NCBI GenBank assembly: GCA_036172665.1
Contig: CM069872.1
Location: 50,888,101 to 50,952,100 of the forward strand
Length of the DNA: 64,000 nucleotides
Direction of reading: 5' to 3'
Source of the DNA: Prosopocoilus inquinatus
Lineage: Eukaryota; Arthropoda; Insecta; Coleoptera; Lucanidae
Part shown: positions 5,901 through 60,395 of the stretch, one piece after another
How the letters are laid out: every line of letters starts with the position of its first letter
Position numbering within the stretch: the first letter of the stretch is position 1
Translations under genes and position numbers: made by a program
The notes under the pieces: model-generated
Databases searched by the model: none
The model's input: only the letters and a program-made list of their open reading frames with translations
What the model was told of the DNA's origin: nothing

Positions 5901-8900
5901 TTTTGATATGACAAATTGAAGAGACACTCTCATTTTACTTTACTGGCAGCTGTTGTTAGGTAACAGATGTGCGAATATTGGACAGGAATCAGGAGTCGAT
6001 CTTACATAATTATTTTTTCTGTTACATTTAATTAGTGCTGCCTTGTAACTCGTCAACGGTCAAGAGAAAAGAGAAGCTGTCAAATGATAAAAATAAAAAA
6101 AAAAAATTGTTTTACTCATTTTAATCAGTCAAGAATCTGTATGAAAAGTGTTTTCTTTTCTGTAAACTCCGAGTAGCTCATTTTGGCAATTGGAACTTTT
6201 ACAAAATAATTCATTCCGTTACGCCTTCACTAGGAAGTCCTTTTTAGATTGTTTCAGGGCACCTCATTTTCTGGTAGCAAAAGATTGGTTCAATTCTGAA
6301 AAAATAATAGGACGTGTTCTGTTTTCAAAACGATTTTAAGGCGCACAAAATTATAAACAATAGTAACACTTTGCGCTCGCTAATCGAAACAAAATAAGTT
6401 GTATGAGGCCCCCGGCCACTCAGAGCGAAGATACAAATATTAAACAGAAGGAGGTGATAAAAACTCAGATCTTTTCCACTGATATACCAGTGGAGAAGAT
6501 CTTTTCCGCAGTTATAATTAGGGCGCGGGAAACTCGGGAGATTGTAGTTTGACTAACCTAACAAATCCTCAAGTGCTGTCTTATAAATAAAAAATAATTT
6601 TGCTTTCTAAAGATTTTCTTTGACCATATCCTCAGGTGAATGGATTGTTTTTCTTAACTTTAGACCTTCTTGCCTTCACCTTTTCTTTTACAAAATAATT
6701 CATTCCGTTACGCCTTCGCTAGGAAGTCCTTTTTAGGTCGTTTCAGGACACCCCATTTTCTGGTAGCAAAGATTGGTTCAATTCTGAAAAACGAATAGAA
6801 CGTGTTCTATTTCCAAAACGATTTTAGGGCACGCAAAATTATAAACAATAGTCACACTTTCCGCTCGCTAATCAAAAGAAAATAAGTTGTATGAGGCCCC
6901 CGGCCACTCAGAGCGAAGATATACCTTAAATATTAAACAGAAGGAGGTGATAAAAACTCAGATCTTTTCCACTGATATACCAGTGGAGAAGATCTTTTCC
7001 GCAGTGATAATCAGGGCGCGGGAAACTCGGGGGATCGTAGTTTGACAGACGTAACAAATCCTCAAGTGGTGTCTTACAAATAAAAATTAATTTTGCTTTC
7101 TAAAGATTTTCTTTGTCCATATTCTCAGGTGAATGGATTTTTTTTCTTAACTTTAGACCTTCTTGCCGTCGCCTTTTGTTTTACAAAATAATTCATTTCG
7201 TTATGCCTTCACTAGGAAGTCCTTTTTAGATTGTTTCAGGGCACCCCATTTTCTGGTAGCAAAAATTGGTTCAATTCTGAAAAAATAACGGAACGTGTTC
7301 TTTTTCCAAAACGATTTTAAGGCACGCAAAATTATAAACAATACTGACACTTTGCGCTGCTCGCTAATCGAAACAAAATATGAGGCCCCCGGCCACTCAG
7401 AGTGAAGATATAAATATTAAACAGAAGAGGATGATAAAAACTCAGATCTTTTCCACTGGTATACCAGTGGAGAAGATCTTTTCCACAGTTATAATTAGGG
7501 CGCGGGAAACTCGGGGGATCGTAGTTTGACTTACCTAACAAATCCTCAAGTGCTCTCTTATAAATAAAAATTAATTTTGCTTTCTAAGGATTTTCTTTGA
7601 CCATATCCTCAGGTGAATGGATTTTTTTCTTAACTTTAGACCTTCTTGCCTTCACCTTTTCTTTTACAAAATAATTAATTCCGTTACGCCTTCGCTAGGA
7701 AGTCCTTTTCAGGTCTTTTCAGGACACCCCATTTTCTGGTAGCAAAAGATTGGTTCAATTCTGAAAAAATAACGGAACGTGTTCTTTTTCCAAAACAATT
7801 TTAAGGCACGCAAAATTATAAACAATACTGACACTTTGCGCTGCTCGCTAATCGAAACAAAATATGAGGCCCCCGGCCACTCAGAGTGAAGATATAAATA
7901 TTAAACAGAAGAGGATGATTAAAAACTCAGATCTTTTCCACTAGTATACCAGTGGAGAAGATCTTTTCCACAGTTATAATTAGGGCGCGGGAAACTCGGG
8001 GGATCGTAGTTTGACTTACCTAACAAATCCTCAAATGCTGTCTTATAAATAAAAATTAATTTTGCTTTCTAAAGATTTTCTTTGACCATATCCTCAGGTG
8101 AATGGATTTTTTTCTTAACTTTAGACCTTCTTGCCTTCACCTTTTCTTTTACAAAATAATTCATTCCGTTACGCCTTCGCTAGGAAGTCCTTTTTAGGTC
8201 GTTTCAGGGCACTCCATTTTCTGGTAACAAAAGATTGGTTCAATTCTGAAAAAATAACGGAACGTGTTCTTTTTCCAAAACGATTTTAAGGCACGCAAAA
8301 TTATAAACAATAGTAACACTTCGCGCTCGCTAATCGAAACAAAATAAGTTGTATGAGGCCCCCGGCCACTTATAGTAAAGATATAAATGTTAAACAGAAG
8401 GAGGTGATAAAAAATCAGATCTTTTCAACTGGTGTACCAATGGAGAAGATCTTTTCCGCAGTTATAATCAGGGCGCGGGAAACTCGGGGGATCGTAGTTT
8501 GACAGACCTAACAAATCCTCAAGTGCTGTCTTACAAATAAAAATTAATTTTGCTTTCTAAAGATTTTCTTTGACCATATCCTCAGGTGAATGGATTTTTT
8601 TTCTTAACTTTAGACCTTTATGGCCCCCACCTTTTATTTTACAAAATAATTTATTCCGTTATACCTTCACTAGGAAGTCGTTTTTAGGTCGCTTCAGGGC
8701 ACCCTATTTTCTGGTAGCAAAGATTAGTTCAATTCTGAAAAAAGAATAGAACGTGTTCTATTTCCAAAACGATTTTAAGGCACGCAAAATTATAAACATT
8801 AGTAACACTTTGCGCTCGCTAATCGAAACAAAATAAGTTGTATGAGGCCCCCGGCCACTCAGAGCAAAGATATAAATATTAAACAGGAGGTGATAAAAAC

Positions 8901-11900
8901 TCAGATCTTTTCCACAGTTATAATTAGGGCGCGGGAAACTCGGGGGATTGTAGTTTGACTGACCTAACAAATTCTCAAGTGCTGTCTTATAGATAAAAAT
9001 TAATTTTGCTTTTTAAAGATTTTCTTTGACCATATCCTCAGGTGAATGGATTTTTTTTCTTAACTTTAGACCTTCTTGCCTTCACTTTTTCTTTTACAAA
9101 ATAATTCATTCCGTTACGCCTTCGCTAGGAAGTCCTTTTTAGGTCGTTTCAGGGCACCCCATTTTCTGGTAACAAAAGATTGGTTCAATTCTGAAAAAAT
9201 AATGGAACGTGTTCTATTTCCAAAACGAGTTTAAGGCACGCAAAATTATAAACAATAGTAACACTTCGCGCTCGCTAATCGAAACAAAATAAGTTGTATG
9301 AGGCCCCCGGCCACTTATAGTAAAGATATAAATGTTAAACAGAAGGAGGTGATAAAAACTCAGATCTTTTCAACTGGTGTACCAATGGAGAAGATCTTTT
9401 CCGCAGTTATAATCAGGGCGCGGGAAACTCGGGGGATCGTAGTTTGACTGACCTAACAAATCCTCAAGTGCTGTCTTATAAATAAAAATTAATTTTGCTT
9501 TCTAAAGATTTTCTTTGACCATATCCTCAGGTGAATGGATTTTTTTTCTTAACTTTAGACCTTCTTGCCTTCGCCTTTTCTTTTAAAAAATAATTCATAT
9601 CGTTATGCCTTCACTAGGAAGTATTTTTTAGGTCCTTTCAGCGCACCCCATTTTCTGGTAGTAAAAGATTGGTTCAATTCTGAAAAAATAATAGGACGTG
9701 TTCTATTTCCAAAACGATTTTAAGGCACACAAAATTATAAACAATAGGCACACTTTGCGCTCGCTAATCGAAACAAAATAAATTACGATCGAGCAAGGCC
9801 CCCTCATCTGACTACGCGTTCAGACTTTGTACCCCACAAGCTTCCAGGGCCCTGGCTATAAAACAGTGTGATGTTTTAATACTCGCAGGATTCTGCCTAG
9901 TCCGTGGACTCTAATTTAACTAACACTTGAAGCAATATCCAAACAGAAAAGAAAATGGTTGTTACTTTGTGAAACAATGAACTCTGACTAGGCCTAAAGA
10001 ATGAATCTTCTCTGACTAGGCCTAAAGAATGAATCTCCCGAAGGAGTGTTTACAATCCTGTTAGAAATTTGCACATTGTCCTGGATTAACTCTCTTCAAA
10101 GCCTTCCGGCTGTTGATCTTAAGATCGAGACAATCGGGGGGGCTTGCAGAGAAACGTTTCGTGGCGTCGTCGAGGACTGGCTTTGGCTCTTGGGAAACCG
10201 GAATTACAAGCCCCTGGATTATAAACTTTGCGCTGTTTTCGGTGTGTGTTGAAAGCGCCACTATTACCTAGAGACTTGGAATGGAATCCTCGAAGACCTC
10301 CCGGTGGATGATGTTATGATGGCCGAGGTGTTTCGAAAGCGCCTCGAAGAAAGTACAGTGGAACTTCGATAAATCAAAAGAAGTATGACTCGCCAGAAAA
10401 AAGTTCGAGTCTTCGGGTTGTTAAATAAACTTCTTGACTGGTAATCGAATTAAAGAAGGCTTTAAAATTAAACTCACATTCTAACCTATAAATAAACGTA
10501 AAGTGGTTTAGTTCGATTATGAAATCGGTCCTCCAACCAATTTGATTCGAGTTATCGAAATTCGACTGTATTTCGTTTTTTTTTTAATTTAAGAAAGAAA
10601 AAGTAGTCAGAATTTGTTAAATTGAAGGTTAGGGAACGGGAATTACTTTAGGTTTAGACCAGCATTTCCCCAACTTTTTGTTTAACATCGACCGCTTAAA
10701 GGGCAAAGAGGTTTTCATCGACTCCCTCTCTCCCCTATTTAAAGTAATATTACAACGTTTAAGTTTGTATCCACGTTGAATTTAGATTTATTATACATAT
10801 GTTTTTAACTCACGTACAAAGCGATTACACCCTGTAGATGATTTTTAAACAAAATTTTTCGATTTAATCCAAAAAATTGTTACAGTTACAGATATACTGT
10901 CTCTTACCGTTTTGACAAGCTTTAAGAATTTTAAAAAATGAAAAAGACTTTGATTTACGCATAGAAAAATCAAAAATCAAATCGAATTTAAAAAATTCAT
11001 AAACATTCTGTTTAGTTGTAATTATTATATTAAACGTCACCTATGAACCACTTTAGGAAATAATTCCCCCACGTTAATAAGTTAACTTATTTGAAAAGCC
11101 AGAACCATCTATTATCTCCAAGTGAAAGCTGTTTTTAGTTAATTTCCTATAACAGGCAAAGTTTTATCTTCACGCTGACGTTTTCAGCAAAATCCTTGCC
11201 TTCATTAACTTCAAAATTGTTTGACATAACTACAATCACGATCTCACGCCATCTCTGGATCAGAAGAAGAAACGATTTGAATCGTAATTTATGAAACAGC
11301 AGTTCACCTTCATGCTGGCATTCCAAGCCAAACTCTGCCTCCGCAATGATTTTAATTTCAAAATTAAATACGAATATGTAAAACCGCGGCCTAACAGGAA
11401 TCTTCAAAGCGACATCTCTTTGTCAAAAGGAGAAATGATTTTAATCGAAATGTTCACCTTCACATTGACATTCTCAGGCGAACTCTACCTACGCAATGAT
11501 TTTATTTAAAAAATTAAATATCAAGACATGAAATCGCGGCGTGACAGGAACCTTCAGAGCGCCATCTCTTGATTAAAAGGAGAAATCGAAATTTCTGCAA
11601 TAGCAATTCATCTTTGCACCGACGTTCCTAGCCGAATTCTGTCTTCGCAATCATTTTAATTTCAAAATTAATTACCAAGATACTAAAATCGCGGCGCGAC
11701 AGGAATCTTCAAAGCGCCATCTATTGATCAAAAGGGGAAACGATTTTAATCGAAATTTCTGCAACAGCAGCTCACTTTCACACTAACATTCCCAACCAAA
11801 TTCTTCCTTCGCAGCGAATTTAATTTCAAAATTAAAATACAAGACACAAAATCGTGGTGCGACGGCAAAGGAATTATTCGAAGCGCCATCTCTTGATCAA

Positions 11901-14900
11901 ATGAGGAAACATCAATTCACCATACACTCACATTCTCAGCCAGATTCTGCCCTCGCAATGATTTAAGTACAAAATTAAACTTCAAGGCAAAATCTTGGTG
12001 TGACGAGAAAGGAATTATTCCAAAGTGCCATCTCTCGACTAAAAATCGAACGATTTTAGTCGAAACGTATATAATGGCATTTCATCTCTACGCTGACGTT
12101 CATTTCAAAATCAAGTTTCAAAATAAAAAATCGCTACGTGTCAGAGATCATTGGATCATGTGGAATCAAGACACGACAGGAATCGTTTATGCGCCATCTC
12201 TTACCCAAAAGGGAAAACTATTTGAAGCAAGGGCTAGTTTCTAAGGAACGAATTAGACAGTAATAGAAAATAGATCTTCTTAATCGACTCTGAATCGACC
12301 ACTAATTTTGTTCATCGATCCCTAAGTGACCCCCAAGAGGTTCATTGACCATTTTTAAGTTCGCGTAGACCCAGTGGTGACTCGTCGGGGTAGTAAACCC
12401 CTTGCTTAAATTTAATTCAAAAATTACAAGCGCGATTGCGAGGGGAGGTAGAGAGGTTCAGTTAATCGAGCGTTGCTCTTGAATTTTGATTGTAACTCGA
12501 GGACGCGTTCGTCGATTGTTTTTTGGTAAAAGGCGTTAGAAAGCTGAGAAAAAGCTCAGTAAATCCCCCACTTAAATTGAATTCAAAAATTACAAGCGCG
12601 ATTGCGAGGGGAGGAGGACGTTCAGTTAATTGAAAGAAACGCTGCGCTTTTGACTTTTGATTGTAACTCAAGAACGCATTCGTCGATTGTTTTTTGGTAG
12701 AAGGCGTTGGAAAGCTCAGAAAAAACTCTATAAATCGCCCACTTAAATTGAATTCGAAAATTACAAGCGCGATCGCGATGGGAGGGAGAGACGTTCAGTT
12801 AATTGAGCGTTGCTTTTGAATTTTGATTGTAACTCGAGAACGCGTTCGTCGATTGTTTTTTGGTAAAAGGCGTTAAAAAGCTGAGAAAAAGCTCTGTAAA
12901 TCCCCCACTTAAATTGAATTCGAAAATTACAAGCGCGATTGCGAGGGGAGGGAGAGACGTTCAGTTAATCGAGCGTCGCTCTTGAATTTTGATTGTAACT
13001 CAAGAACGCGTTTGTCGATTGTTTTTTGGTAAACGGCGTTGGAAAGCTGAAAAAAAGCTCTGTAAATCCCCCGCTTAAATTGAATTTAAAAATTACAAGC
13101 GCGATCGCGAGGGGAGGGAGAGACGTTCATTTAATTGGGCAAATAAAAACGCGTCGCTTTGGAATTTTGATTGTAACCCAAGAATGCGTTTGTCGATTAT
13201 TTTTTGGTGAAAGGCGTTGGAAACTTGAGAAAAATCTCAGCAAATCCCGCGCTTAATTTTGATTCAAAAATTATAAGTGCGATGGCGAGGGGAGGAGAGA
13301 CGTTCAGTTAATTGAAAGAAACGCTGCCCTTTTGAATTTTGATTGTAACTCAAGAACGCGTTCGTCGATTGTTTTTTGGTAAAAGGCGTTGGAAAGCTGA
13401 GAAAAAACTCTGTAAATCCCCCACTTAAATTGAATTCGAAAATTACAAGCGCGATTGCGAGGGGAGGGAGAGACGTTCAGTTAATCGAGCGTTGCTCTTG
13501 AATTTTGATTGTAACTCGAGAACGCGTTCGTCGATTGTTTTTTGGTAAACGGCGTTGGAAAGCTGAGCAAAAGCTCAATAAATTTCGTGCTTAAATTGAA
13601 TTCGAAAATTATAAGCGCGATGGCGAGAGGAGGGAGAAGTTCAGTTAACTGAGCAAATATAGTTTTTTTAATTTTCATTGTAACTCAAGAACGCGTTCGT
13701 CGATTGTTTTTTGGTAAAGGGCGTTGGAAAGCTGAGGAAAAACTCTGTAAATCCCCCACTTAAATTGAATTCAAAAATTACAAGCGCGATCGCGAGGGGA
13801 GGAAGAGACGTTCAGTTAATTGAGCGTCGCTTTTGAATTTTGATTGTAACTCAAGAACGCGTTCGTCGATTGTTTTTTGGTAAACGGCGTTGGAAAGCTG
13901 AGAAAAAGCTCTGTAAATCCCCCACTTAAGTTGAATTTAAAAATTACAAGCGCGATCGCGAAGAGAGGGAGAGACATTGATTTCCACTTCGAAATCAAGT
14001 TTCAAAATAAAAAATCGCGACGTGTCAGAGATCATTCACTTTTTAATCGACTCCGAATCGACCCCTAATTGTTCATCGACCCACAATCGGCCCCCAAGAG
14101 GTTCATCGACCATTTTTAAGTTTGCGTCGACCCCTCGGGGGAAAACATCGACCCCGTTTTAGACAATAGTTTGCTCGTTATTGAAAGGAAAGTCTGCAGT
14201 TAATTTTCGCTAGCACAGTGAGAAGAACCTGTTGAACTGTACGTGGGGTGATTATAAATTCTGGGGGGAATGTGAATGGAATTATGTTTATTTTTACACA
14301 CCTCACGAGTGTCGTCGCTCTAATCAGCTGTGTACACAGTAAATATTTTTATTGGCCTATTACTATTACGAAAACAAATATTTGCGAATGTAGATGGGCG
14401 GGGGGGTCGGAGGGGCAGGGGGGGGGTTATTAGAATGACAATTATTTGCCGACGCTTATGAACAGATTATAATCTAATGTCGGTGTTGGTTTAGGAAGGC
14501 GGCCGCCGCCGCCGCTGAGATTTGTTTCACGGGATGCCGTGGAAATCGCACGTAGAGCGGTTATGGAACGAGTGGGACGCAGAAGAGACTGTCATGTTCA
14601 TTCAGACCACAATGCAGACAATGATAATAAGTGGAATGACATCAGATATCTAAACCATTATTGAACGTTCTCCTCTATACACGCGTTCGTTCATTCTCTC
14701 CTAAAATAGACATTCTCATTATTATTGCCGACCATCGGAGACTTCGATGGGTAATTTAATGAAAATGCTCGTTGGGAGGAGATTTAATATCGAACGGAAG
14801 AAACGAGCACAATTTTGTAAAACGTTTCCCGGAAGAAGAATTTCAAAATCCCCAATGTATTGTTGTTTAAGATTCCATCTTTTTGTATGGTTTTATGTGA

Positions 14901-17900
14901 GTTTCTGAAGCTCCCTAATTCCAATTTCCAATTAAGAGGATCAAGCATTTTATGGAAGCTTTGAATTTATTCGAATCTGTTTTATGAAGGGTGCCTTATA
15001 AGTAGTGTGAGGACGTTTTCAGGTGTACAGCAAACAGAGTTTAGTATTCACAGCAGATGACGTTGCCTTATTTTGTCCTCTCATTACTTATAACTTCAAA
15101 ACTACATAACTACTTATGACTATGCAGTTCTTAAATACATGGTCGAGACTACCTCAACACCATCCCTAATTTTAAATTTTCTTATTCCATCCACATTTAT
15201 TATAAACCCTTTTATTATTCCTCCATTAATAGGATTGCCTTTTGTTTCAGAAACATGGTGCGCGATTAAAATGTGCAGCATGTAACGTAATAGCCCATCA
15301 AAATTGCATCACCACATTGGTGGAGAGGGTGAAATTCACCTGCAAACCCACGTTTAGAGATGTGGGCGTGCGACAGTACCGGGAACAGACGTGCATCCAC
15401 CACCACTGGGTTCACAGACGGTCTGAAAAGGGCAAATGTAGGCAGTGTGGAAAGGTAGGGGAATGAATATACATACCTAAACCTTCGTTCCCAAAAATAA
15501 ATGTAATCGATACGTTTGGCATCAACAGAAAATTTGGGCCAGCAAGTTCGATAACGACAACAAGTAAATTAATGTCAAACATTAATTAATCAATGGATGA
15601 ATTTTAATCACTCGGTATTTCGGTATTAACGTCGAACTTTTTCATTTTTGGAGATTATATTTGTTTTTGTTATACGTTTATGTGCAGGGTCATAACGCCA
15701 GGGGCGGATTTAGGCACGGTCTTTATGGGCTGCAGCCCAGTGGCCCGTGCAATCAAAGGGCCTCCTTCACGGTTAAAAAATGTATATGACTCGTAGAATA
15801 TTTTATTTATTTAAAAAAAGCCGCTTTACACCCACCATCTGATTTGCCATTAATTTTGAATTTGACACACTGTTTGTGTTTCTATTTGAGTTGCGCGCAG
15901 TGGCGTAACTAGAAATCAGGCCTCCCACCGCCTTTAATTTATTACAATATTTAATTTTAAAGTTCATTTCTTTAGGTGCTTATTTTCTACGCTAAATAAA
16001 TCAAAACTGCTTTATTGCTCTTGGATTATTTTATTTCAAAAAGTTACAAGAGTTGTCAAAATTGCTCTTGGTTTATTTTATTTCAAAAAGTGGCAAAATT
16101 TTAGGTTAGAAGAGCTGCCGCAAAAAGTAGCGTTAAGCGGAGAATGTGCTTAAATTGTTTCTAAAATGATTTCTTGAAGAATTTGCCTGTCTTCCATCCG
16201 GTTTGTAAAAAGAACAAAATTAATTGCGGTTACAGATTAAAAGATGGCGTTGCTTGTGTTTGGAACTTCTTTCTGACAATTTTTTTGTTTATTTGAAATC
16301 GTTTTTTGTAATATTATTTCTTCAATTTTTCTGAGCATTCTTCGATTGCCTTGAAATTGCTTCGCCACAAACAGAGAGGACAGAGAATGATTCATGATTC
16401 ACGATAACAGATGGCACCACAAACGTGTTTGTTATTCAAAGTTGTTTTTAGAACATTGTTCTTTAGCTTCTGTATTATTGTTCATGATTTTTAGGCCAAA
16501 TTTAATTATGATTGTGTAGGTGTGGAAGTAAATTATTCAGATAGTTTCCCTAAACGATTTTTTCAGTTGTTTTCAATTCTTCGCTTTAATTATTTGGAAC
16601 AGATAAAACAGCGACACCCTACGATCGCTTTTTGTCCTTTACAACAACATTACATAAGGATTGACAAATTAAAGCGGGTCCGCTACATATTAAGTCACCC
16701 CATGCAAGGCGGCCATGCTTGCTGTTAAAGCAACACACTTTTTTAACTATTTAGGTACAAAATTGAATTTATTCAAAATTGTTTTCAGAGTTTTGTTTTT
16801 TTCTAGCATTCCTACCGTTTTTTTTTTTTAGTTGTTTTGAAATCTCTTCCTGGAATATTACAAATTTACGGCTCAGATTAACAGATGGCGCTGTCAATGT
16901 CGTTCATTTGAAATTGATACTTAAAACTTAGTCGTTTCGAAATTGTTTTCAGGCAATAATATCTCCCAAAATTAAAATTCTCTTAGTTTATTATTTCTTC
17001 TTCTTTTTCTTTTTTTTAACTTATTTCAGACTGTATTCAGTATTTGAAAATATACGTTTATTAAAAATCTTTTGAATTTGTGAATCTTTTCAGAGATAAC
17101 GCCTTGGTATATCCCCCCGTAGCAACGCCACTGTTAAAGCCAATTAAAATATTTCAAAGTTGACCATTTGTTGCTACGACTGTTTTCTCTTTTTTAATTT
17201 CCGTTAAGCTTCGATATCCTTCAAAAAATATATTCACGTGAGATTTCAACTTTTTTTCCGACTTCATGAAACAAACGAATCTGAGGAATGAACAAGTGAC
17301 TGCAGGTGACCATCTTCTAAGTTAGAGTGATTGTTTTTTTTTTTTTTTGGTGAGATTTGTCGTTGTCTTTTTGTTGCGTGCGCAAAGGATATTCCGTTTT
17401 CCTTTTTCCTTTTTTTAAGCGATCAATTTTTTTTTCTTCAACTTTCCTTCATTCAATCCAATGTTAGGTTTTCTTTTTATTTTTATTAATTTTTTTGGTT
17501 TGAGTTTAAGCGTTCCTTTTTTTTTGTTTGCCATAAAACGATGTTTTCAGTTTCTAAAATGTGTTTTTATTTATTTATTCATTTTTAATTTTCTTTAACA
17601 ATATCTTCCGATCGTCTTTTGTTTCTTTTTTTTATTGTTTAATTTACGTTACTTTTTCCTATTTTGTTCTCAATTTGCTTTTTTTATCCAAACAGGCATT
17701 ACTTTTTTAATTTTTTTAATTTTTATTTCCAAATCGGGATTATTTTTTTTATTTTAAGCAATTTTTTTTGTTTAAATTTAAGCGATCGCGTTTTGTTTCT
17801 GAATTTTATTCGATTTTTTTCAAAATTTTCGAAGAAGGAATCCCTCCTAAGATACCTACATTTTTGCCTTCGACTTTGAATTTGATTAGGTTTGGAATTT

Positions 17901-20900
17901 TCTTCGTCTTCTTTTTAATTAATGCGATCGTCTTTTGTTTTTGAAATTTATTATTTTTTTGTTTGTTTGTTTGTTGCTTCCGCAAAGAACAATCTGTGTT
18001 TGTTTTTCATTTTTAGCAAGACCGTTCGATCGGTTTTTGTTTTCGCTATTTTATTTTATTTTTGAAATTTTTCGTTTTTTCTTTTCAATTAGCCTTTGCC
18101 CTCTTTCAAGGTTAGATTTTTTTCCATATTTTGACTGCTCTTTTGTTGTTCATTACTATTACATCGCAATTACGAATAAATTAGACAAGTCGTTTTTGGT
18201 CTGCAGTGGGAATGTCGAGCTACGTCTCTGCTGATGAAGCCCCAAACAGGGCTGAAACAGCTGTACAGAGGCTGCTCGAGGTTTTCACTGCAATCAAGAA
18301 CGATTTGCAACAAATTTTTTTGATCTTTTGTTGTTTAAGTTTAAGCGATCTCTTTTGTTTCTAAAATGTGTTGTTTTTTTTTCTCCAAATAATTTTCGTA
18401 AGAGAATCCTTCCCAAGGAGGACGATTATTTAAATAATCATTTTTTATTTGTATTTTGGTTAAAAGATATGTAGATGGCGTTCATATTTTGCAACTTTAC
18501 TGAAACATTATTTTTATTAGATAGTAATTTTCCGTAATTCATTTTTTCTTTCTGAAAGCTTAGAATTTGCAATATCTCCATAAATTCAGAAGGAAATTAG
18601 CTTTACCTGCACTGGTTTTGCTTCTTCTTGTGTTAATTGTGTTAATTCCACTTCCTTGAAGAAATTCATTTCAATTTATTTCGCGTTAGGCAGACCTGAA
18701 GTTCAAAATAAGAAATCTGAATTCAAAAATTTTTCGTCTATTATAGGTATGTACGTATCGCGGAGTAAATTCGGGGACACACTGTATAAACTTTTTTTTA
18801 GCTTTTTATACAAATGAATTTCGATTATACTGCCTCGATCTCGGCGACACTGGTGAATAAGAAAATTTCTTTAATTAGATTGTTAAGAGATTTCGTAGAA
18901 AAACGCACCGGCATGGTTTTCATTATTAGACTTGAAATAAAACACTAATAAGTCACATTTTTTGTCAAAATATTGCAAAACTAATACTGGAAATTTAAAA
19001 TATTTTTAGTAATTTATTAAACTATTTTTCGTTTCAAATATTCCAGAACATAAAATAAAATTTAAAAAAAAAAATCACGGTCGACAAATTGACGAATGAG
19101 TCGTCATAAACCCAAAACCCAAACTTGGATTTATTTATATTTATTGGGCAGCCCAAATAGTATTAGCCCAGGGCCCCCAAAGTTAACGGTCCGCCCCTGG
19201 CTAACTCGAGAATACGCCTGGCCTTTTTCTTTTTAATTTTTGAATTGAATGTGTTGTTCCAAAGAGGAGAAAAATTTCCTTTCAGTGATTCACAGATTTC
19301 ATCAATCATCAATTGGTTCAAAGTTCTTGCATAAAATGTCGACATCCTAATCATACCGTCGGTTAACAGTTTAATTATCAAAAGAAAAGTTCCGGATTAA
19401 GCACAACGCAGACGAATAAAATAATTAAATTAAAATTCTGTACGGTGGAAGTCGTAAACTTGACGTCATTACTTTTATCAGTACAAATTTAATTACGAAT
19501 AGGGCAGACAGAGTGCGCTGAAGACGTTTTGCCAGCGCAAATGCCTGTGCGTTTTTACTGCCGTGTTTTTAGATATTATACATATTTTTTTTTATTCGCC
19601 TCCCATACACCATAACACAAACGTTATTGCTCCTTTGATCCAGTCAAAGGCGAAAGATACACGCAAGTAATAACTTCGCTAATAAAACTCCATTAAATCC
19701 AATCTTTCAAGACTTTCAACGTTGCTTGGATTAGTCCGACGTGGATCGTTCCTAAACGAAATGCAAAAAACAGGGCAATTTCTGTTTTAGTCATTCCAAT
19801 CAAAATTATCGTTCAGCAGCAAAGAGATCGTGGCGTTAAGTTGTTCGTGGTGCAAAGCAGCTTATCACAACAAGGAAAGCTGCTTCAACTTGAACCGCAT
19901 CGCCGAAGAATGTAAGCTGGGTGTCCACAACAGTATTATAGTCCCACCCTCTTGGATAGTTAAGCTGCCGCGCAAGGGTAGTTTCAAGTCAAGCCTGCGC
20001 AAGTCTCCCAAAAAGCGGGCTTCGAGTAAAAAGAGAAGCAAAGACAAAGTACGTGGTGATGACCATTTGGTTATCCCCTAATTGATTGGTTTTGGTTTGT
20101 GTGCATACAGGATAAGGATCAGAAGACATTTGTGATAAAACCAATTCCATCGGCGGCGGTAACTCCGGTGATCGTTTTCATAAACCCGAAGTCAGGCGGC
20201 AATCAGGGAACAAAACTGCTCCAGAAGTTCCAGTGGCTCCTAAACCCCCGCCAAGTATTCGACCTAACTCAAGGCGGACCAAAATTAGGCTTAGAACTTT
20301 TTAAGAAGGTACCTAATCTCCGGATACTTGCTTGCGGTGGAGACGGGACCGTAGGTTGGATCCTCAGCGTCATCGACCAAATAGGCATATCACCCCCACC
20401 GGCTGTCGGGGTCCTACCCTTAGGCACCGGAAACGACTTGGCTCGCGCGCTCGGCTGGGGCGGTGGCTACACAGACGAACCAATTTCGAAGATCCTTTTG
20501 AACGTGAGCGCATCCGAAACGGTGCTTTTAGATCGGTGGTCTTTGCAAGTCGAGAAGAACCTTGAGGGCGACGCCAGCGAAGGCGGCAAAGAAAATCTAC
20601 CCCTGAACGTCGTCAACAACTATTATTCTTTGGGGGTGGACGCTCACATTGCTTTGGAATTTCACGAGGCCAGAGGTATTGTCGTTTTTGTCGGTTAGTG
20701 TCGAAGTTGAAACGTTTTGTTCCAGAGGCCCACCCCGAAAAATTTAATTCAAGGCTGAGGAACAAAATGTTTTACGGCCAAATGGGAGGTAAGGACTTGC
20801 TGAAGAGGAAGTGGAAGGGGCTGGCCGAGTTTGTGACTTTAGAATGTGACGGGAAAGATATGACGCCAAAACTGAAAGAGCTCAAAGTGCACGCTATTGT

Positions 20901-32710: not shown

Positions 32711-35700
32711 TCAGTGATATGCGGGGAGGGCGTATTTGGCAACTGGAGCGGCGTACGCTATGGGGGCGGCGATTTTGGCAACCGGAGCGACGGCCTTGAC
32801 GGCCACGCCAAGTGGTTCGCGGTGTACAACCGCGTTGAAACCGTTGTGGGGATCGGCGGTGTACTCGACGGTTCTCTTGGTTCCATCGGAGTCGATGAGG
32901 GAGTAACTGCCCTGGACGACGTCGCCGTCGCGTGTTTCATGTTGGCTCTTGCTGTCACCGGTAAGTCCATCTTGGATGTCATAAGCGAAGGAGTATTGAG
33001 GATGAGGATCGTAATCGTCGGCGACTACGGTTTTCGCTACGGCCAAAGGAGCGGCGTATTTGGCTACGGGCGCGGCGTAACTCAGATACGGAGAAGGTGC
33101 GGCAAGACCAATGGCACCAGCATGAGCGATGGCCACAAAGGCAGCGAATAATGCAAGCTATGACGTAAAACAAATAATTCTCAACTTCAATTAATAATCT
33201 TTTTTTGTAAAATACAGAAACAAAAGGCACCGGGCGCGTTCAGCGGACGCTCTGCGGCTGAATTGCTTACTCAGCAGTGGTTTGTGAGTGGCTATTACCT
33301 TAATGTGAGCCAATCACAAACGATTGTTGAGTAAGCAACTCAGCCGCTGAGAATCCTTGAACGCGCCCATTTGTTTAAACTGTTTAATATGTTGGCTTCA
33401 GTGTCCTATCTAATTGTGTTTAATCTGTGACAGAAAAAACTAATATCGCCATATACGAAGATAAAACATTAATTAATAACAATTATAAACTTAGAAGTAA
33501 TAGAAATATGAGTAAATAACACAAATAAATGATTAAAGATGTAAAGTGAGCATAAATAACTGCAAATACATTTAAATTAACATGAAGTTGTAGCGCGTCT
33601 TTTTAAAAAAAAATTATTGGAGTAAGCCACGACTTTTTATTTTAGTTGGCGGCATTGAATGCGTGACATTTAATTATATTATAATGGCCTTCATTAATTT
33701 AATTCAATTATCTGACAGTTTGATGACTAAAATCAAAATTTCAGTTGTTTTTTTAGAATTGCCAGCGTCTTTTGTAAAATCAAGGCTTACTCAAATTAAA
33801 AATTTAAAAAAAATCTACATCGATATGTTATTAAAACAAATGCAAACAATATGCAGTTACAGTGTTGCAAATAACTGAATAAAAGAATGCTCTTGATTGT
33901 ATTGCCAACTGAAACAGTTATACTCGATCAATTCAATTGTCTTTTCAGAATTGTAAAATCATGGCCTACTCAAATTGAAAAAATTAAAAATCTGTATCGA
34001 TCTGTCAATAGAACAAATGCGAACAATATCCAGTTAGTGTTGCAAATAGTCGAATAAGAAAACGCTCTTCATTGCACTGCCAACTGAAACAGTTATACTC
34101 GATCACTTTGTATAAAAACTAAACTAAAAGGAGTAAATTTAATTAAGAAAACGAAATTAGAAACTAATAATAAAAAATTGCACAGAAAAATAAATTAAAA
34201 AGTAACAAAGGTAGCTCAATGGAAAATGTAGAATCAATAAAAAGAATTAAATTAATTTAAAAGATGTTAGTAACAATTATAAAGTTTGAAATTATAGAAT
34301 TAAGACTAAATAAATCAAATAAATAGTTAAGGATGCAAAGTAATCGTAAATAGCTGCAAATGCGTTTAAATTAGCATGAAGTTGTACCGCGTCATTAAAT
34401 AACATTTTATTTTAGTTGGCGGCATTGAATGCGTGACATTCAATTGTATTGTAATGGATGAATCGGGGCTTTATTAATTTAGTTTCAAGTATCTGACAGT
34501 TTGAAGACTTAAATCAAAATTTCAGTTGTGTTTTCAGAATTGTAAAACTAATTAAAAAATTTTAAAAATTTGTATCGATCTGTTATTAGAACAAATGCAA
34601 ACAATATCCAGTTACAGTGTTGCAAATAGTCGAATAAGAAAACGCTCTTCATTGTGTTGCCAACTGAAACAGTTATAATCGATCGCTTTGTATAAAAAAA
34701 AAAAACTAAACTAAAAGGAAGAAAATGAATTAGGAAAACTAATAATAAAAAAGAATTGCAAATTATCAAAGAAAACGCAATGAAAGATGTAGAATCAATA
34801 AAAAAATTAATTTTTAAATTAGTTTAAAAGATGTTCTCTTTCCAAAAGGCAATTATGATGAAACTAATTAAAGTTTAATTAAAGTCAAGCTTAAATCAGT
34901 AAATTTTCAATTACAAAAGTTTAATTAAAGTTTGAAAGCAAAAACTTTAAAAAAATCTAATCAATTCGTCTCAAAAAAAAAATTAATTCAACAAAATTTG
35001 AAGATCCGCAAGAGTAAACAAAGTTTAAAAAAATACATTTAAACTTAATTTAACAGATTCAATTTTAAAACATTTATTTTACTTTAGTTTCTGTAGCGAA
35101 TTTAAAAACATTAATTAACATTTATTTTATTACCAATTTTGTTGTAAATCGTTTTTGATTGCAGTGAATCCCTCGAGTATCCACTGTACAATTGTTTCAG
35201 CCCTGTTTGGGGCTTCGCCAGCAGAAGTATAGCTCGAGAGTTTGCTTGCAAACTAATAACTTGTCCGAGGTCAGTACATTATTGAATGGTTAAATAAAGA
35301 GAACAAAACAAAAAACAAAAAAAAATAGATTTAACAAAGATGCAATTCTTTCGTATTATTAAAAAAAAATAGTTTTGTCCAACGAATTTCAATTAATTTA
35401 TTTTATCAATTTTGTTGCAAATCGTCTCTTATTGCAGTGGAACCCTCGAGCATCCACTGTACAACTGTTTCAGCGCCATTTGGGGCTTCGTCAGCAGAAG
35501 CGTAACTCGAGAGTTCCCTTGCAAACCAAAACGACTAGTCCGAGAATATTCATTTATTTTATCAAATTCTAACAAAGCCTAATAAATTATTGAATGGTTA
35601 AATAAAGAAAACTAAAAAAAAAAACTCAAAAAACATTTTTTCGTATTATTTTAAAATAGTTTAGTTTTGTCCAACGAATTTAAAAACTTCAATTTTGTTG

Positions 35701-37442
35701 CAAATCGTTTTAGATTGCAGTGGATCCGTCCAGCATCCACTGTACAGCTGTTTCAGCCCTACTTGGAGCTTCGTCAGCAGAAGCGAAGCTGGAGAATTCC
35801 CTTGCAAACCGAAACGACTTGTCCGAGAATATTCATTTATTTTATCAAATTCTAACAATAAAGCCTAATAAATGATTGAATGGTTAAGTAAAGAAAACTA
35901 AAAAAAAACTCAAAAAAGAGACAGATTTAACAAGGATACAGTTTTTTCGTATTATTTTAAAATAATTTAGTGTCATCCAACGAATTTAAAAACATTTGTC
36001 TTATCAATTTTTTTGCAAATCGTTTTTGATTGCAGTGGATACCTCGAGCAGCAGCTGTTTCAGCCCTGTTTGGAGATTCGTCAGCAGAAGAGTAGCTCGA
36101 GAGTTCCCTTGCAAACCAAAACGACTTGTTAGAGGATATTCATTTATTTTATTAAGAATAATAATAAATTATTGAATAATTAAATTAAAAAACTAAAAAA
36201 AAAAAAAAAAACTCAAAAAACAGACAGATTTAACAAAGATGCAGTTCTTTCGTATTATTTTAAAATAATTTAGTGTCGTCCAACGAATTTAAAAACATTT
36301 GTTTTATTAAATTTTTTGCAAATCGTTTTTTTTTATTAAGAATAATAATAAATTATTGAATAATTAAATTAAAAAACTAAAAAAAAAAACTCAAAAAACA
36401 GACAGATTTAACAAAGATGCAGTTCTTTCGTATTATTTTAAAATAATTTAGTGTCGTCCAACGAATTTAAAAACATTTGTCTTATCAATTTTTTTGCAAA
36501 TCGGTTTTTGATTGCAGTGGATACCTCGAGCAGCAGCTGTTTCAGCCCTGTTTGGAGTTTCGTCAGCAGAAGAGTAGCTCGAGAGTTCCCTTGCAAACCA
36601 AAACGACTTGTTAGAGGATATTAATTTATTTTATTAAGAATAATAATAAATTATTGAATAATTAAATTAAAAAACTAAAAAAAAACTAAAAAAACATACA
36701 CATTTAACAAGGATACAGTTTTTTCGTATTATTTTAAAATAATTTAGTGTCGTCCAACGAATTTAAAAACATTTGTCTTATCAATTTTTTTGCAAATCGG
36801 TTTTTGATTGCAGTGGATACCTCGAGCAGCAGCTGTTTCAGCCCTGTTTGGAGTTTCGTCAGCAGAAGAGTAGCTCGAGAGTTCCCTTGCAACCCAAAAC
36901 GACTTGTTAGAGGATATTAATTTATTGTATTAAGAATAATAATAAATTATTGAATAATTAAATTAAAAAACTAAAAAAAAAAAAAAAATCAAAAAACAGA
37001 CAGATTTAACAAAGATGCAGTTTTTTCGTATTATTTTAAAATAATTTAGTGTCGTCCAACGAATTTAAAAACATTTGTTTTATTAAATTTTTTGCAAATC
37101 GTTTTTGATTGCAGTGGATACCTCGAACAGCAGCTGTTTCAGCCCTGTTTGAAGTTTCGTCAGCAGAAGAGTAGCTCGAGAGTTCCCTTGCAAACCAAAA
37201 CGACTTGTTAGAGGATATTCATTTATTTTATTAAGAATAATAATAAATTATTGAATAATTAAATTAAAAACTAATAAAAAAAAACTCAAAAAACAGACAG
37301 ATTTAACAAAGACGCAGTTCTTTGGTATGGTTTTAAAATAATTTAGTTTCGTCCAAACGAATTAAAAAAATAAATAAATTAATTAAATATTTACGATTTC
37401 GTAACGACCAAATTATGCGATTGATCTTACCTTAAAAAACAT
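32711..37442 (-). CDS. Cuticular protein, RR-2 (CPR) family
   Basis: A secreted structural protein that binds chitin in the exoskeleton. Exon 1 codes only MFFK (37442-37431), followed by the donor GTAAGA. Exon 2 is 33157-32711 and starts after the acceptor TCATAG. The join is in phase 0 and gives 152 residues. A signal peptide covers about residues 1-17 ([17 protein letters not shown]). Ala/Pro/Val repeats of the [10 protein letters not shown] type flank the Rebers-Riddiford domain (about residues 60-125), with [29 protein letters not shown] and [17 protein letters not shown]. The G-x-Y-x-L and YTAD-x-NGF spacing is RR-2, usually linked to stiff cuticle. A very short first coding exon is usual for CPR genes. 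The 4.27 kb intron holds the whole hammerhead repeat array, in sense. Exon 1 was found by frame and splice sites and supported by the promoter just upstream. Confidence 0.92.
33232..33368. mobile_element. Foldback MITE, GGGCGCGTTCA ends
   Basis: GGGCGCGTTCAGCGGACGCT faces TGAACGCGCCC. Inside, TTGCTTACTCAGCAG faces TTGAGTAAGCAACTCAGC. 137 bp, inside the cuticle gene intron. Two relatives lie at 60724 and 60878. Confidence 0.85.
33575..34800. repeat. Complex direct repeat in the cuticle gene intron
   Basis: CATGAAGTTGTA plus GGCGGCATTGAATGCGTGACATT occurs at about 33583 and 34376 (roughly 795 bp apart). A block with ACAATATCCAGTTACAGTGTT and CGCTCTTCATTG and TTGCCAACTGAAACAGTTAT occurs three times (about 33841, 34020, 34600). 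34800-35090 is AT-rich with nothing recognised. Confidence 0.75.
35172..35238 (-). ncRNA. Hammerhead motif, array copy 1, core mutated
   Basis: The core reads CUGGCGA, so the conserved A after CUG is G. GAAA, the GUA cleavage triplet, stem II (AGCCCC/GGGCU) and the CUCGAG/CUCGAG outer stem I are kept. Probably inactive. Confidence 0.7.
35445..35511 (-). ncRNA. Hammerhead motif, array copy 2, intact core
   Basis: On the minus strand: CUGACGA (plus 35488-35494), GAAA (35468-35471), stem III GAAACAGUUGUA with predicted cleavage after the A at 35460. Stem I inner pairs are UCUG-side to CAG-side, and the outer stem is CUCGAG with CUCGAG. Stem II has one C-C mismatch (AGCCCC/GGCGCU). Confidence 0.8.
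35728..35793 (-). ncRNA. Hammerhead motif, array copy 3, intact core with stem I covariation
   Basis: On the minus strand: CUGACGA, stem II AGCUC/GGGCU, GAAACAGCUGUA. The outer stem I is CCAGC with GCUGG where the other units have CUCGAG with CUCGAG. Both sides changed so as to keep pairing, which is evidence for selection on structure or for descent from a functional master. Confidence 0.8.
36043..36101 (-). ncRNA. Hammerhead remnant, array copy 4, cleavage site deleted
   Basis: CUGACGA and GAAACAGCUG are kept, but the GUACAGUGG-like stretch is missing. GAAACAGCUG runs straight into CUGCUCGAGG, so the GUA cleavage triplet and inner stem I are lost. Confidence 0.75.
36525..36583 (-). ncRNA. 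Hammerhead remnant, array copy 5, cleavage site deleted
   Basis: Same deletion as copy 4; core CUGACGA and GAAA remain. Confidence 0.75.
36821..36879 (-). ncRNA. Hammerhead remnant, array copy 6, cleavage site deleted
   Basis: Same deletion as copies 4 and 5, nearly identical to copy 5. Confidence 0.75.
37122..37180 (-). ncRNA. Hammerhead remnant, array copy 7, cleavage site deleted
   Basis: Same deletion; in addition the outer stem I reads TTCGAG on one side. It lies about 250 nt downstream of the cuticle gene exon 1 donor. Confidence 0.75.
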
Positions 37443-56590: not shown

Positions 56591-56686
56591 TCTTTCAAAT
56601 GCAACCTACAAATTCGTACGTATTTATTTAGAACAGGTAAAACGGCGACATCTTACGATCGCTTTTTGACCTGACATTGCAGTAGG

Positions 56687-56852
56687 ATAGACAAATTGAA
56701 GCGGATTTGCTCCTAATAAGTCCCCCATGCAAGGCGGCCATGCTTGCTGTCAAAGCATAAGATAAAAAAAAACTTTCATTATGCTTTGACAGCAAGCATG
56801 GCCGCCTTGCATGGGGGACTTATTAAGAGCAAATCCGCTTCAATTTGTCTAT
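56687..56852. repeat. 166-bp near-perfect palindrome (74-bp arms, 18-bp loop)
   Basis: Left arm 56687-56760 and right arm 56779-56852 are reverse complements with about one mismatch (GCTCCTAATAAG against GCTCTTAATAAG). The arms contain CATGCAAGGCGGCCATGC. One arm with ~60 bp of upstream flank (ACGATCGCTTTTTG) is found singly at 16590-16735, so the second arm was added by inverted duplication here. Confidence 0.95.
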
Positions 56853-56857
56853 GAATG

Positions 56858-56925
56858 TCGAGCTACGTCTCTGCTGACGAAGCCCCAACAAGCAGGGCTG
56901 AAACAGCTGTACAGAGGGTGCTCCA
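56858..56925 (+). ncRNA. Type I hammerhead ribozyme motif, intact core, next to palindrome
   Basis: Six bases after the palindrome: CUGACGA (56873-56879 region), stem II AGCCC/GGGCU with a 9-nt loop, GAAACAGCUGUA, predicted cleavage after GUA at about 56911. Inner stem I is UCUCUG with CAGAGG, and the outer stem is GAGC with GCUC. Downstream flank CACTGCAATCAAAAACGA matches the unit at 18.2 kb. Confidence 0.8.
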
Positions 56926-57049
56926 GGTTTTCACTGCAATCAAAAACGATTTGCAACAAATTTTTTTAAAAAGTATTTATTTAGGAAGATAACATAAATT
57001 ACTGACTCATTGTCAAATTGACATGCGGTATACATATAAAGCCGATTTA

Positions 57050-59490: not shown

Positions 59491-60395
59491 CAGTGGCGGC
59501 TCGTCGGAGTGGGCAATATGGCCCCTGTCCTTAGAAGTTGCAGATTCCGGTTCCTCGTCCGGGCAACACCGAAAAACAAATTTGTTTGCAAAATGCTCCC
59601 ACTTTCCCTTTTGCAGTTGTGGATTGTTTTTTGGTGAAAGGCGTTGGAAAACTGAGAAAAAGCTCTGTAAATCCCACGCATAAATTTAATGCAAAAATTA
59701 CAAGACCGATCGCGAAGGGAAGAAGTTAATCAGTTAGTCGAGCAAATAAAAAATACGGCGCTTTTGAATTTCGATTGTAACTCAAGAACGCGTTCGCCGA
59801 TTGTTTCTTGGTAAACGCCGTTGGAAAGCTGAGAAAAAGCTCTGTAAATCCCCCGCTTAAATTGAATTCAAAAATTACAAGCGCGATCGCGAGGGGAGGG
59901 AGAGACGTTCACTTAACTGGGCAAATAAAACGCGTCGCTTTAAAATTTTGATTGTAACACAAAAACGCGTGCGTCGATTGTTTTTTGGTAAAAGGCGTTG
60001 GAAAGCTGAGAGAAAGCTCTGTAAGTCCTCCACTTAAATTGAATTCAAAAATTACAAGCGCGATCGCGAGGGAAGGGAGAGACCACCATTTAATTGGGCA
60101 AATATAAACGCGTCGCTTTGGAATTTTGATTGTAACCCAAGAACGCGTTCGTCGATTGTTTTTTGGTGAAAGACGTTGGAAACTTGGGAAAAATCTCAGC
60201 AAATCCCGCGCTTAATTTTGATTCAAAAATTATAAGTGCGATGGCGAGGGGAGGGAGAGACGTTTAGTTTAATCGAGCAAAGCTTTTGAATCTTGATTGT
60301 AACTCAAGAACGCGTTTGTCAATTGTTTTTTTTTTGGGTACTTTCCCTTCTGCGGTTGTTGCCCACTCGCAGTAAATCATCACGAGCCGCCACTG
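59491..60395. mobile_element. Non-autonomous hAT element with 8-bp target duplication and internal satellite
   Basis: Ends CAGTGGCGGCTCGT and ACGAGCCGCCACTG are a 14-bp perfect terminal inverted repeat, with GAGTGGGCAA also shared subterminally. CGAAACAC stands directly before (59483-59490) and after (60396-60403), an exact 8-bp duplication typical of hAT. The interior is about five units of the ~170-bp repeat (GATTGTTTTTTGGT, AAATTACAAG..GCGATCGCGA) also found as nine units at 12370-13975. No transposase. Confidence 0.93.

Follow-up and report, generated by a model that had tools for sequence, protein, structure and literature searches.

A hammerhead array in an intron of a cuticle protein gene

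A window of 64,000 nucleotides (nt) from the genome of the lucanid beetle Prosopocoilus inquinatus (assembly GCA_036172665.1, contig CM069872.1, positions 50,888,101 to 50,952,100) contains hammerhead ribozyme motifs at three places. Seven copies form a tandem array on the minus strand, inside intron 1 of an RR-2-type cuticle protein gene, and two solitary copies lie on the plus strand with cores at 18231 and 56874 (Table 1). We consider it likely that a single family of short hammerhead retroelements inserted here three times, each time with a ribozyme, that the third insertion was locally amplified in the intron, and that genome-wide the family is probably retrozyme-like. The intronic array itself is most likely a mostly dead, locally amplified insertion.

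The initial annotation of this DNA had placed the array inside an RR-2 cuticle gene intron of about 4.3 kb and in the orientation of the gene, and this was borne out. The intron is bounded by GT and AG, and the downstream exon matches Chitin_bind_4. Splicing is predicted, on the basis that homologues align with the joined protein of exons 1 and 2. Like the gene, the array lies on the minus strand, in sense orientation.

The array consists of eight repeat bodies and seven ribozymes (37163, 36862, 36566, 36084, 35777, 35494, and 35221), the latter spaced at 301, 296, 482, 307, 283, and 273 nt, and has a GC content of 0.29. It had been described as seven tandem units of 270-315 nt. The seven minus-strand hammerhead-like copies are there, but one spacing is 482 nt, the bodies number eight, and core and cleavage triplet are both intact in two of the seven copies (35777 and 35494). 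The copies at 37163, 36862, 36566, and 36084 have in common an 8-nt deletion, through which both the cleavage triplet and the first part of stem I are lost. In the ribozyme part these four are 95-100% identical; the three downstream copies are 81-87% identical among themselves (gaps left out in both cases). Judging by sequence, at best one or two of the seven array ribozymes could cut. If cleavage took place at the predicted sites after 35743 and 35460, the released monomer would measure 283 nt.

Table 1. Hammerhead copies, related elements, and parts of the host gene in the window (TSD, target-site duplication)
Feature	Position	Strand	Details and basis
Hammerhead copy without cleavage site	37121..37179	-	motif scan and alignment
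Hammerhead copy without cleavage site	36820..36878	-	motif scan and alignment
Hammerhead copy without cleavage site	36524..36582	-	motif scan and alignment
Gap between two repeat bodies, ribozyme missing	36309..36326	-	bodies 36132-36308 and 36327-36485
Hammerhead copy without cleavage site	36042..36100	-	motif scan and alignment
Best-kept array hammerhead	35727..35793	-	predicted cut after A 35743; one U-U in stem I
Array hammerhead	35444..35510	-	predicted cut after A 35460; C-C in stem II and U-U in stem I
Array hammerhead, changed core	35171..35237	-	core CTGGCGA
Repeat body (non-ribozyme part)	36910..37084	-	query of the genome search
Exon 1 of cuticle gene, coding part	37431..37442	-	MFFK; sequence, predicted
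Intron 1 of RR-2-type cuticle protein gene	33158..37430	-	4273 bp, GT 37430 to AG 33158; sequence, splicing predicted from homologues
Exon 2 of cuticle gene	32711..33157	-	148 amino acids (aa); domain match PF00379 (Chitin_bind_4)
Solitary hammerhead element, 173 bp	18151..18323	+	ribozyme 18215-18281; 12-bp TSD TCTTTTGTTGTT at 18139 and 18324, control 15/1000
Element of 341 bp, inverted-repeat arms then hammerhead	56632..56972	+	12-bp TSD GTATTTATTTAG at 56620 and 56973, control 6/1000
Arm sequence of the same element family (about 80%)	16597..16732	+	no ribozyme-model match; arm comparison

Number, covariation, and classification of the hammerhead motifs

The window contains eight exact CTGANGA..GAAAC cores, six in the array and one at each solitary position. 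In 100 shuffled windows the mean was 0.8 and the maximum 4, and none reached 8. A relaxed scan added the seventh array copy (35221), which reads CTGGCGA. Covariation was assessed on an alignment of 14 copies without the 8-nt deletion (5 from the window and 9 from elsewhere in the genome; 13 distinct). In this alignment 87.8% of helix cells pair, compared with 29-46% when the helices are slid, and two-sided changes are found in 10 helix cells against a shuffle mean of 3.8, a value that none of 500 shuffles attained. For example, one stem I pair that is G-C in most copies is C-G in unit 35777, with changes on both sides. The outer stem I helices are not claimed, as just 57-58% of their cells pair (21 copies, 19 distinct). 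The given structure includes an internal loop in stem I.

The core, the three helices, and the NUH cleavage site of a type I hammerhead are all present at 18231, at 56874 and 35777 with one stem I mismatch each, and at 35494 with mismatches in stems I and II. The set is incomplete in 37163, 36862, 36566, and 36084, which have no site, and in 35221, where the core is changed. The copy at 18.2 kb had been named at the outset and does have an exact core, but the one at 56.87 kb had gone unnamed.

A scan of the window with the Rfam type I model (RF00163), a check proposed in the initial annotation, found nothing at the gathering score. Lowering the threshold to E<=10 on the array returned four chance families and no hammerhead. 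Type I gave no match at 56.8-57.0 kb, and the 18.2-kb copy, at 22.2 bits, fell short of the cut-off of 34. Outside the window, seven of the eight matches listed for this genome pass the type I model, two of them (L005 and L006) being nearly identical to each other. According to the 18.2-kb alignment, the failure of the model on the array fits two features of the element: its stem II begins with an A-U pair in place of the G-C of the Rfam consensus, and its stem III is short.

That the window copies stay below the Rfam gathering score is what would be expected if the similarity were due to chance, or to common ancestry of an ordinary repeat without any ribozyme meaning. The excess of cores, the covariation, the relatives above the Rfam cut-off, and the copies flanked by TSDs make this explanation hardly credible. 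The hammerhead motifs are genuine and belong to a retrozyme-like family, which is a known kind. The hammerhead identity, the two-pair stem III, and the retrozyme-like relatives originally noted all hold.

Predicted folding

In the predicted minimum-energy folds of monomers, GCUG pairs with CAGC in the solitary and young copies and the core is buried. The predicted dimer minimum is a double hammerhead with a free core, joined by a palindromic stem III (ACAGCUGU), in both solitary window copies and in the three young copies tested. RNAs of this family may perhaps be cut as dimers through that palindrome, as the folding model would have it. Dimer action has been reported for axolotl retrozymes (PMC7229834) and for newt hammerhead motifs (PMC6155905).

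The element family in the window and in the genome

Both solitary window copies sit in short elements flanked by 12-bp TSDs. An inverted repeat at 56631-56852 stands directly before the 56.87-kb hammerhead, and it matches the arms of dispersed members at about 87%. A larger form, at locus L016, measures 470 bp between 13-bp duplications and has four parts in order: a palindrome of about 300 bp, a linker, the hammerhead, and a tail. Element length between TSDs is 173-500 bp, and one full element has a GC content of 0.41. Locus L011 contains two ribozyme parts in direct order, 312 nt apart, in one insertion with a 10-bp duplication, and the first part is without its own 5' half of stem I. From its sequence, this direct pair would be consistent with a circular or tandem RNA traversed more than once.

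Repeats of 9-13 bp mark the ends of six of the seven elements in a first set, with controls of 0 to 15 per 1000. In a second set of 16 loci, repeats of at least 8 bp were found at nine, and those of three loci (L035, L019, and L025) are rare in controls (1-2 of 500).

Dispersed relatives of the ribozyme are numerous. Scoring 40 of 1642 candidates yielded 46 matches, 44 of them at 95-100% identity and one being the query itself. These matches represent 38 loci, and close relatives are present on C1-C10 and C12 among the candidates scored. To estimate abundance, 20 random 10-kb stretches were drawn (5 of 173 contigs), and the first 18 were searched with a ribozyme model, R1, at E<=1. This random 180-kb sample contained six copies (L019, L021, L023, L025, L028, and L032), or about 33 per Mb with a 95% range of 12-73, decayed copies included (L019 reads CUAAAGA). 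Of the 14 copies used to build model R1, 5 come from the window, and its scores for copies used in this way are by construction. The four site-less array copies were excluded from A2 and R1; the 14 do include copy 35221, with its changed core, and L011:4425, whose cleavage site reads GUG.

Taken genome-wide, the family probably acts as a retrozyme. RNA copies would be cut by their own type I hammerheads and reverse-transcribed into new sites, which would gain the 9-13-bp duplications in the process. Cleavage and the RNA intermediate are the parts of this cycle that we infer.

L016 also has a 1.38-kb inverted repeat (1-1378 and 7764-9065, 90% identical) with weak ribozyme-model matches in both arms (32.7 and 29.1 bits). 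A larger host element at this locus was considered and rejected: the inverted repeat is present, but the only frame that reaches 110 aa is 151 aa long. L005 and L006 (C5, 39.9 and 48.4 Mb) contain 3046-bp stretches that are 99.97% identical and 8.4 Mb apart, either a recent duplication or an assembly matter.

Origin of the array

The repeat body was searched against the whole 650-Mb genome with a query of 175 bases. Of the ten matches found, eight are bodies of the array itself, and the other two are partial, covering 45 and 62 bases of the query. The body is therefore nearly confined to this locus, which argues that the array is not a transposed retrozyme multimer, as the whole unit of such a multimer should have relatives.

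This bears on the proposal of the initial annotation that the array is a tandem retrozyme living off host transcription, the transcript of the cuticle gene being processed, in cells that form cuticle, into RNA circles of about 280 nt. The sense orientation within the intron of a cuticle gene is as that proposal would have it, five of the six neighbouring ribozyme pairs are spaced at 273-307 nt, and the neighbours 35777 and 35494, which keep the cleavage triplet, would bound a 283-nt RNA. However, four of the seven copies are without the site, one is a core mutant, and one has mismatches in stems II and I, so that most copies are without a usable core or site. No dimer hammerhead is predicted for the pair 35777/35494, and none of the five array homodimers tested folds as one, although this is an imperfect test since all six Rfam-passing relatives tested fail it too. 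With the body found at the array locus only, bar the two partial matches, the proposal is unsupported and we regard it as very improbable; judging from the sequence, circular RNA driven by the host gene is not likely to come from this array.

Local amplification of a single insertion is the account we prefer. In unit 35494 the ribozyme part is flanked by a 14-bp direct repeat (TTGATAAAATAAAT), similar to an old TSD, and unit 37163 retains 9 nt of this repeat. A short hammerhead retroelement would have landed once in the cuticle intron as the third insertion in the window, and DNA duplication on the spot would then have multiplied it along with about 150 bp of the adjoining intron. Four of the seven array ribozymes would descend from a unit already without its cleavage site, having multiplied after breakage. 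This is the order of events that we would reconstruct. A TSD around the whole array was also sought; the only candidate, an 11-nt AT match, was equalled by 8 of 300 controls and is not convincing.

Several observations weigh against the reading of three insertions of one mobile family, one of them amplified in place. The confinement of the body was established with a single 175-base query, in a search that skips very common words. The TTGATAAAATAAAT repeat is clean in one of the seven array units and has no control of its own; apart from the two units named, the other five gave merely other, shorter matches. Similarity to the 18.2-kb copy is 91-95% for the four site-less copies versus 82-85% for the three downstream ones, and this unequal closeness of the array halves makes it possible that the array's history involved more than one event. 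Among the dispersed elements, L011_4441 is without a TSD. In the second set, the repeats of six other loci were equalled in 18-42 of 500 controls, the repeat of L040 resembles the element's own tail, and no end repeat was found at 7 of the 16 loci, including the ribozyme-only L044 and L046. The folding predictions also count here. The monomer minimum lies 4.6-14.4 kcal/mol below the hammerhead-constrained fold in all 14 copies, the free-core double hammerhead is predicted in just 6 of 18 homodimers (5 distinct sequences), and none of the six Rfam-passing copies tested reaches it. As copies that pass Rfam fail it, the fold prediction is no test of activity.

A resident Penelope-like element and head-to-head pairs

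The genome contains a Penelope-like element. A GIY-YIG match at C1:419154-419402 lies inside a 788-aa frame, and 1.5 kb situated 200 bases away on the same strand (L050) is open throughout, matches RVT_1, and is in the same frame by arithmetic. A frame at L048 matches GIY-YIG independently.

Pair frequencies of the two element kinds come from the two scored candidate lists alone, which cover 150 of 2232 candidates for GIY-YIG and 40 of 1642 for the ribozyme. GIY-YIG pairs within 5 kb are head-to-head in 45 of 46 cases (58 of 104 loci are single), and ribozyme pairs within 1 kb in 8 of 8 (30 of 38 loci are single). No tail-to-tail arrangement was seen among the close pairs scored of either kind. 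Loci L035-L041 were picked for being inverted pairs, and six of these seven have tail end and arm end at both sides. L048 and L049 are palindromic head-to-head Penelope ends with an arm identity of 99%.

The geometry common to close pairs of both element kinds suggests, without proof, that Penelope-type machinery moves the ribozyme elements, and it is the main link to a Penelope-type partner. The partner enzyme would then be encoded by a Penelope-like element. Penelope-like elements were proposed by Cervera and de la Pena (PMC7229834) as strong candidates for the mobilization of animal retrozymes.

The ribozyme elements could also be non-autonomous Penelope-like elements themselves, kin of hammerhead-bearing pseudo-long terminal repeats (pLTRs), inserted singly or as inverted copies by the reverse transcriptase (RT) and endonuclease of the resident Penelope. 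Close pairs of both kinds have a head-to-head bias, and the resident element has RVT_1, GIY-YIG, and a hammerhead-like CTGAAGA..GAAA core near each 3' end, on the outer sides, in both short copies read (L048 and L049; no chance control). Published Penelope elements have inverted pLTRs, TSDs of 9-10 bp, and an optional 31-bp tail, with head-to-head as the commonest inverted arrangement (PMC3846280). Yet the ribozyme element has no sequence similarity to the fetched Penelope 3' parts beyond a best match of 11 nt, in a comparison that covers two short head-to-head copies and one part with an open reading frame (ORF). In those 3' parts neither Rfam (E<=1) nor model R1 calls the hammerhead-like core, and in the predicted dimer fold of the motif the core is paired. 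Direct pairs of the ribozyme element also occur elsewhere in the genome (L011 and L016). We hold this descent from Penelope to be possible, though it falls somewhat short of probable.

A bolder proposal, which we offer tentatively and would ourselves rather doubt, combines the folding and insertion patterns. Short hammerhead RNAs, self-cut as palindrome-paired dimers, would be copied by Penelope RT, which would start at two points on a circular or multimeric template. The resulting head-to-head inserts would be flanked by TSDs and have fixed outer ends and a variable middle. This abundant element would then bridge retrozymes and Penelope-like elements. If true, it would offer direct evidence, from a natural system, of the partner enzyme that has been proposed for retrozymes of animals.

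Comparison with known hammerhead repeats

Like metazoan non-LTR retrozymes (PMC7229834), the family has type I hammerheads, low GC, TSDs of more than 4 bp, co-existing Penelope elements, and an insect host, and the 312-nt direct pair of L011 is retrozyme-sized. Unlike them, among the best matches listed 30 of the 38 loci are single and 8 are head-to-head with no direct tandem within 1 kb, inverted-repeat arms stand beside the ribozyme, and the tandem array of the window is probably a local duplication. With Penelope-like elements carrying minimal hammerheads (PMC11167929, PMC3846280), the family has in common head-to-head copies, short TSDs, the hammerhead, and an inverted terminal part with a tail. 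However, ribozyme elements of 173-500 bp cannot hold an RT and GIY-YIG ORF, and they have no sequence match to those resident Penelope 3' parts that were read.

The Dolichopoda pDo500 satellite is likewise an insect repeat with a hammerhead in each unit (PMC2837043). In pDo500 conservation is higher in the hammerhead than elsewhere in the unit, and among 198 sequences the cleavage position changed a single time, whereas in the present array the site is lost in four of seven copies. The amniote hammerheads (PMC6155905) are also intronic but described as highly conserved, and the array copies are decayed repeats. A literature search combining hammerhead ribozyme, Coleoptera, and transposable element found nothing.

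The array advises caution, as hammerheads in tandem can arise when a decayed insertion is duplicated locally at the DNA level, and circular RNA need not follow. The part worth following is the Penelope-like insertion geometry of the family. With close pairs of both element kinds showing one-sided geometry in one genome, the Penelope-partner proposal becomes testable.

Other tandem repeats in the window

Further tandem arrays are found elsewhere in the window. The one at 6196-9781 has a 489-bp unit in 7.4 copies with 90% matches. Those at 12405-13975 (periods 166/335) and 59622-60262 (period 177) have units with common sequence and lie about 46 kb apart.

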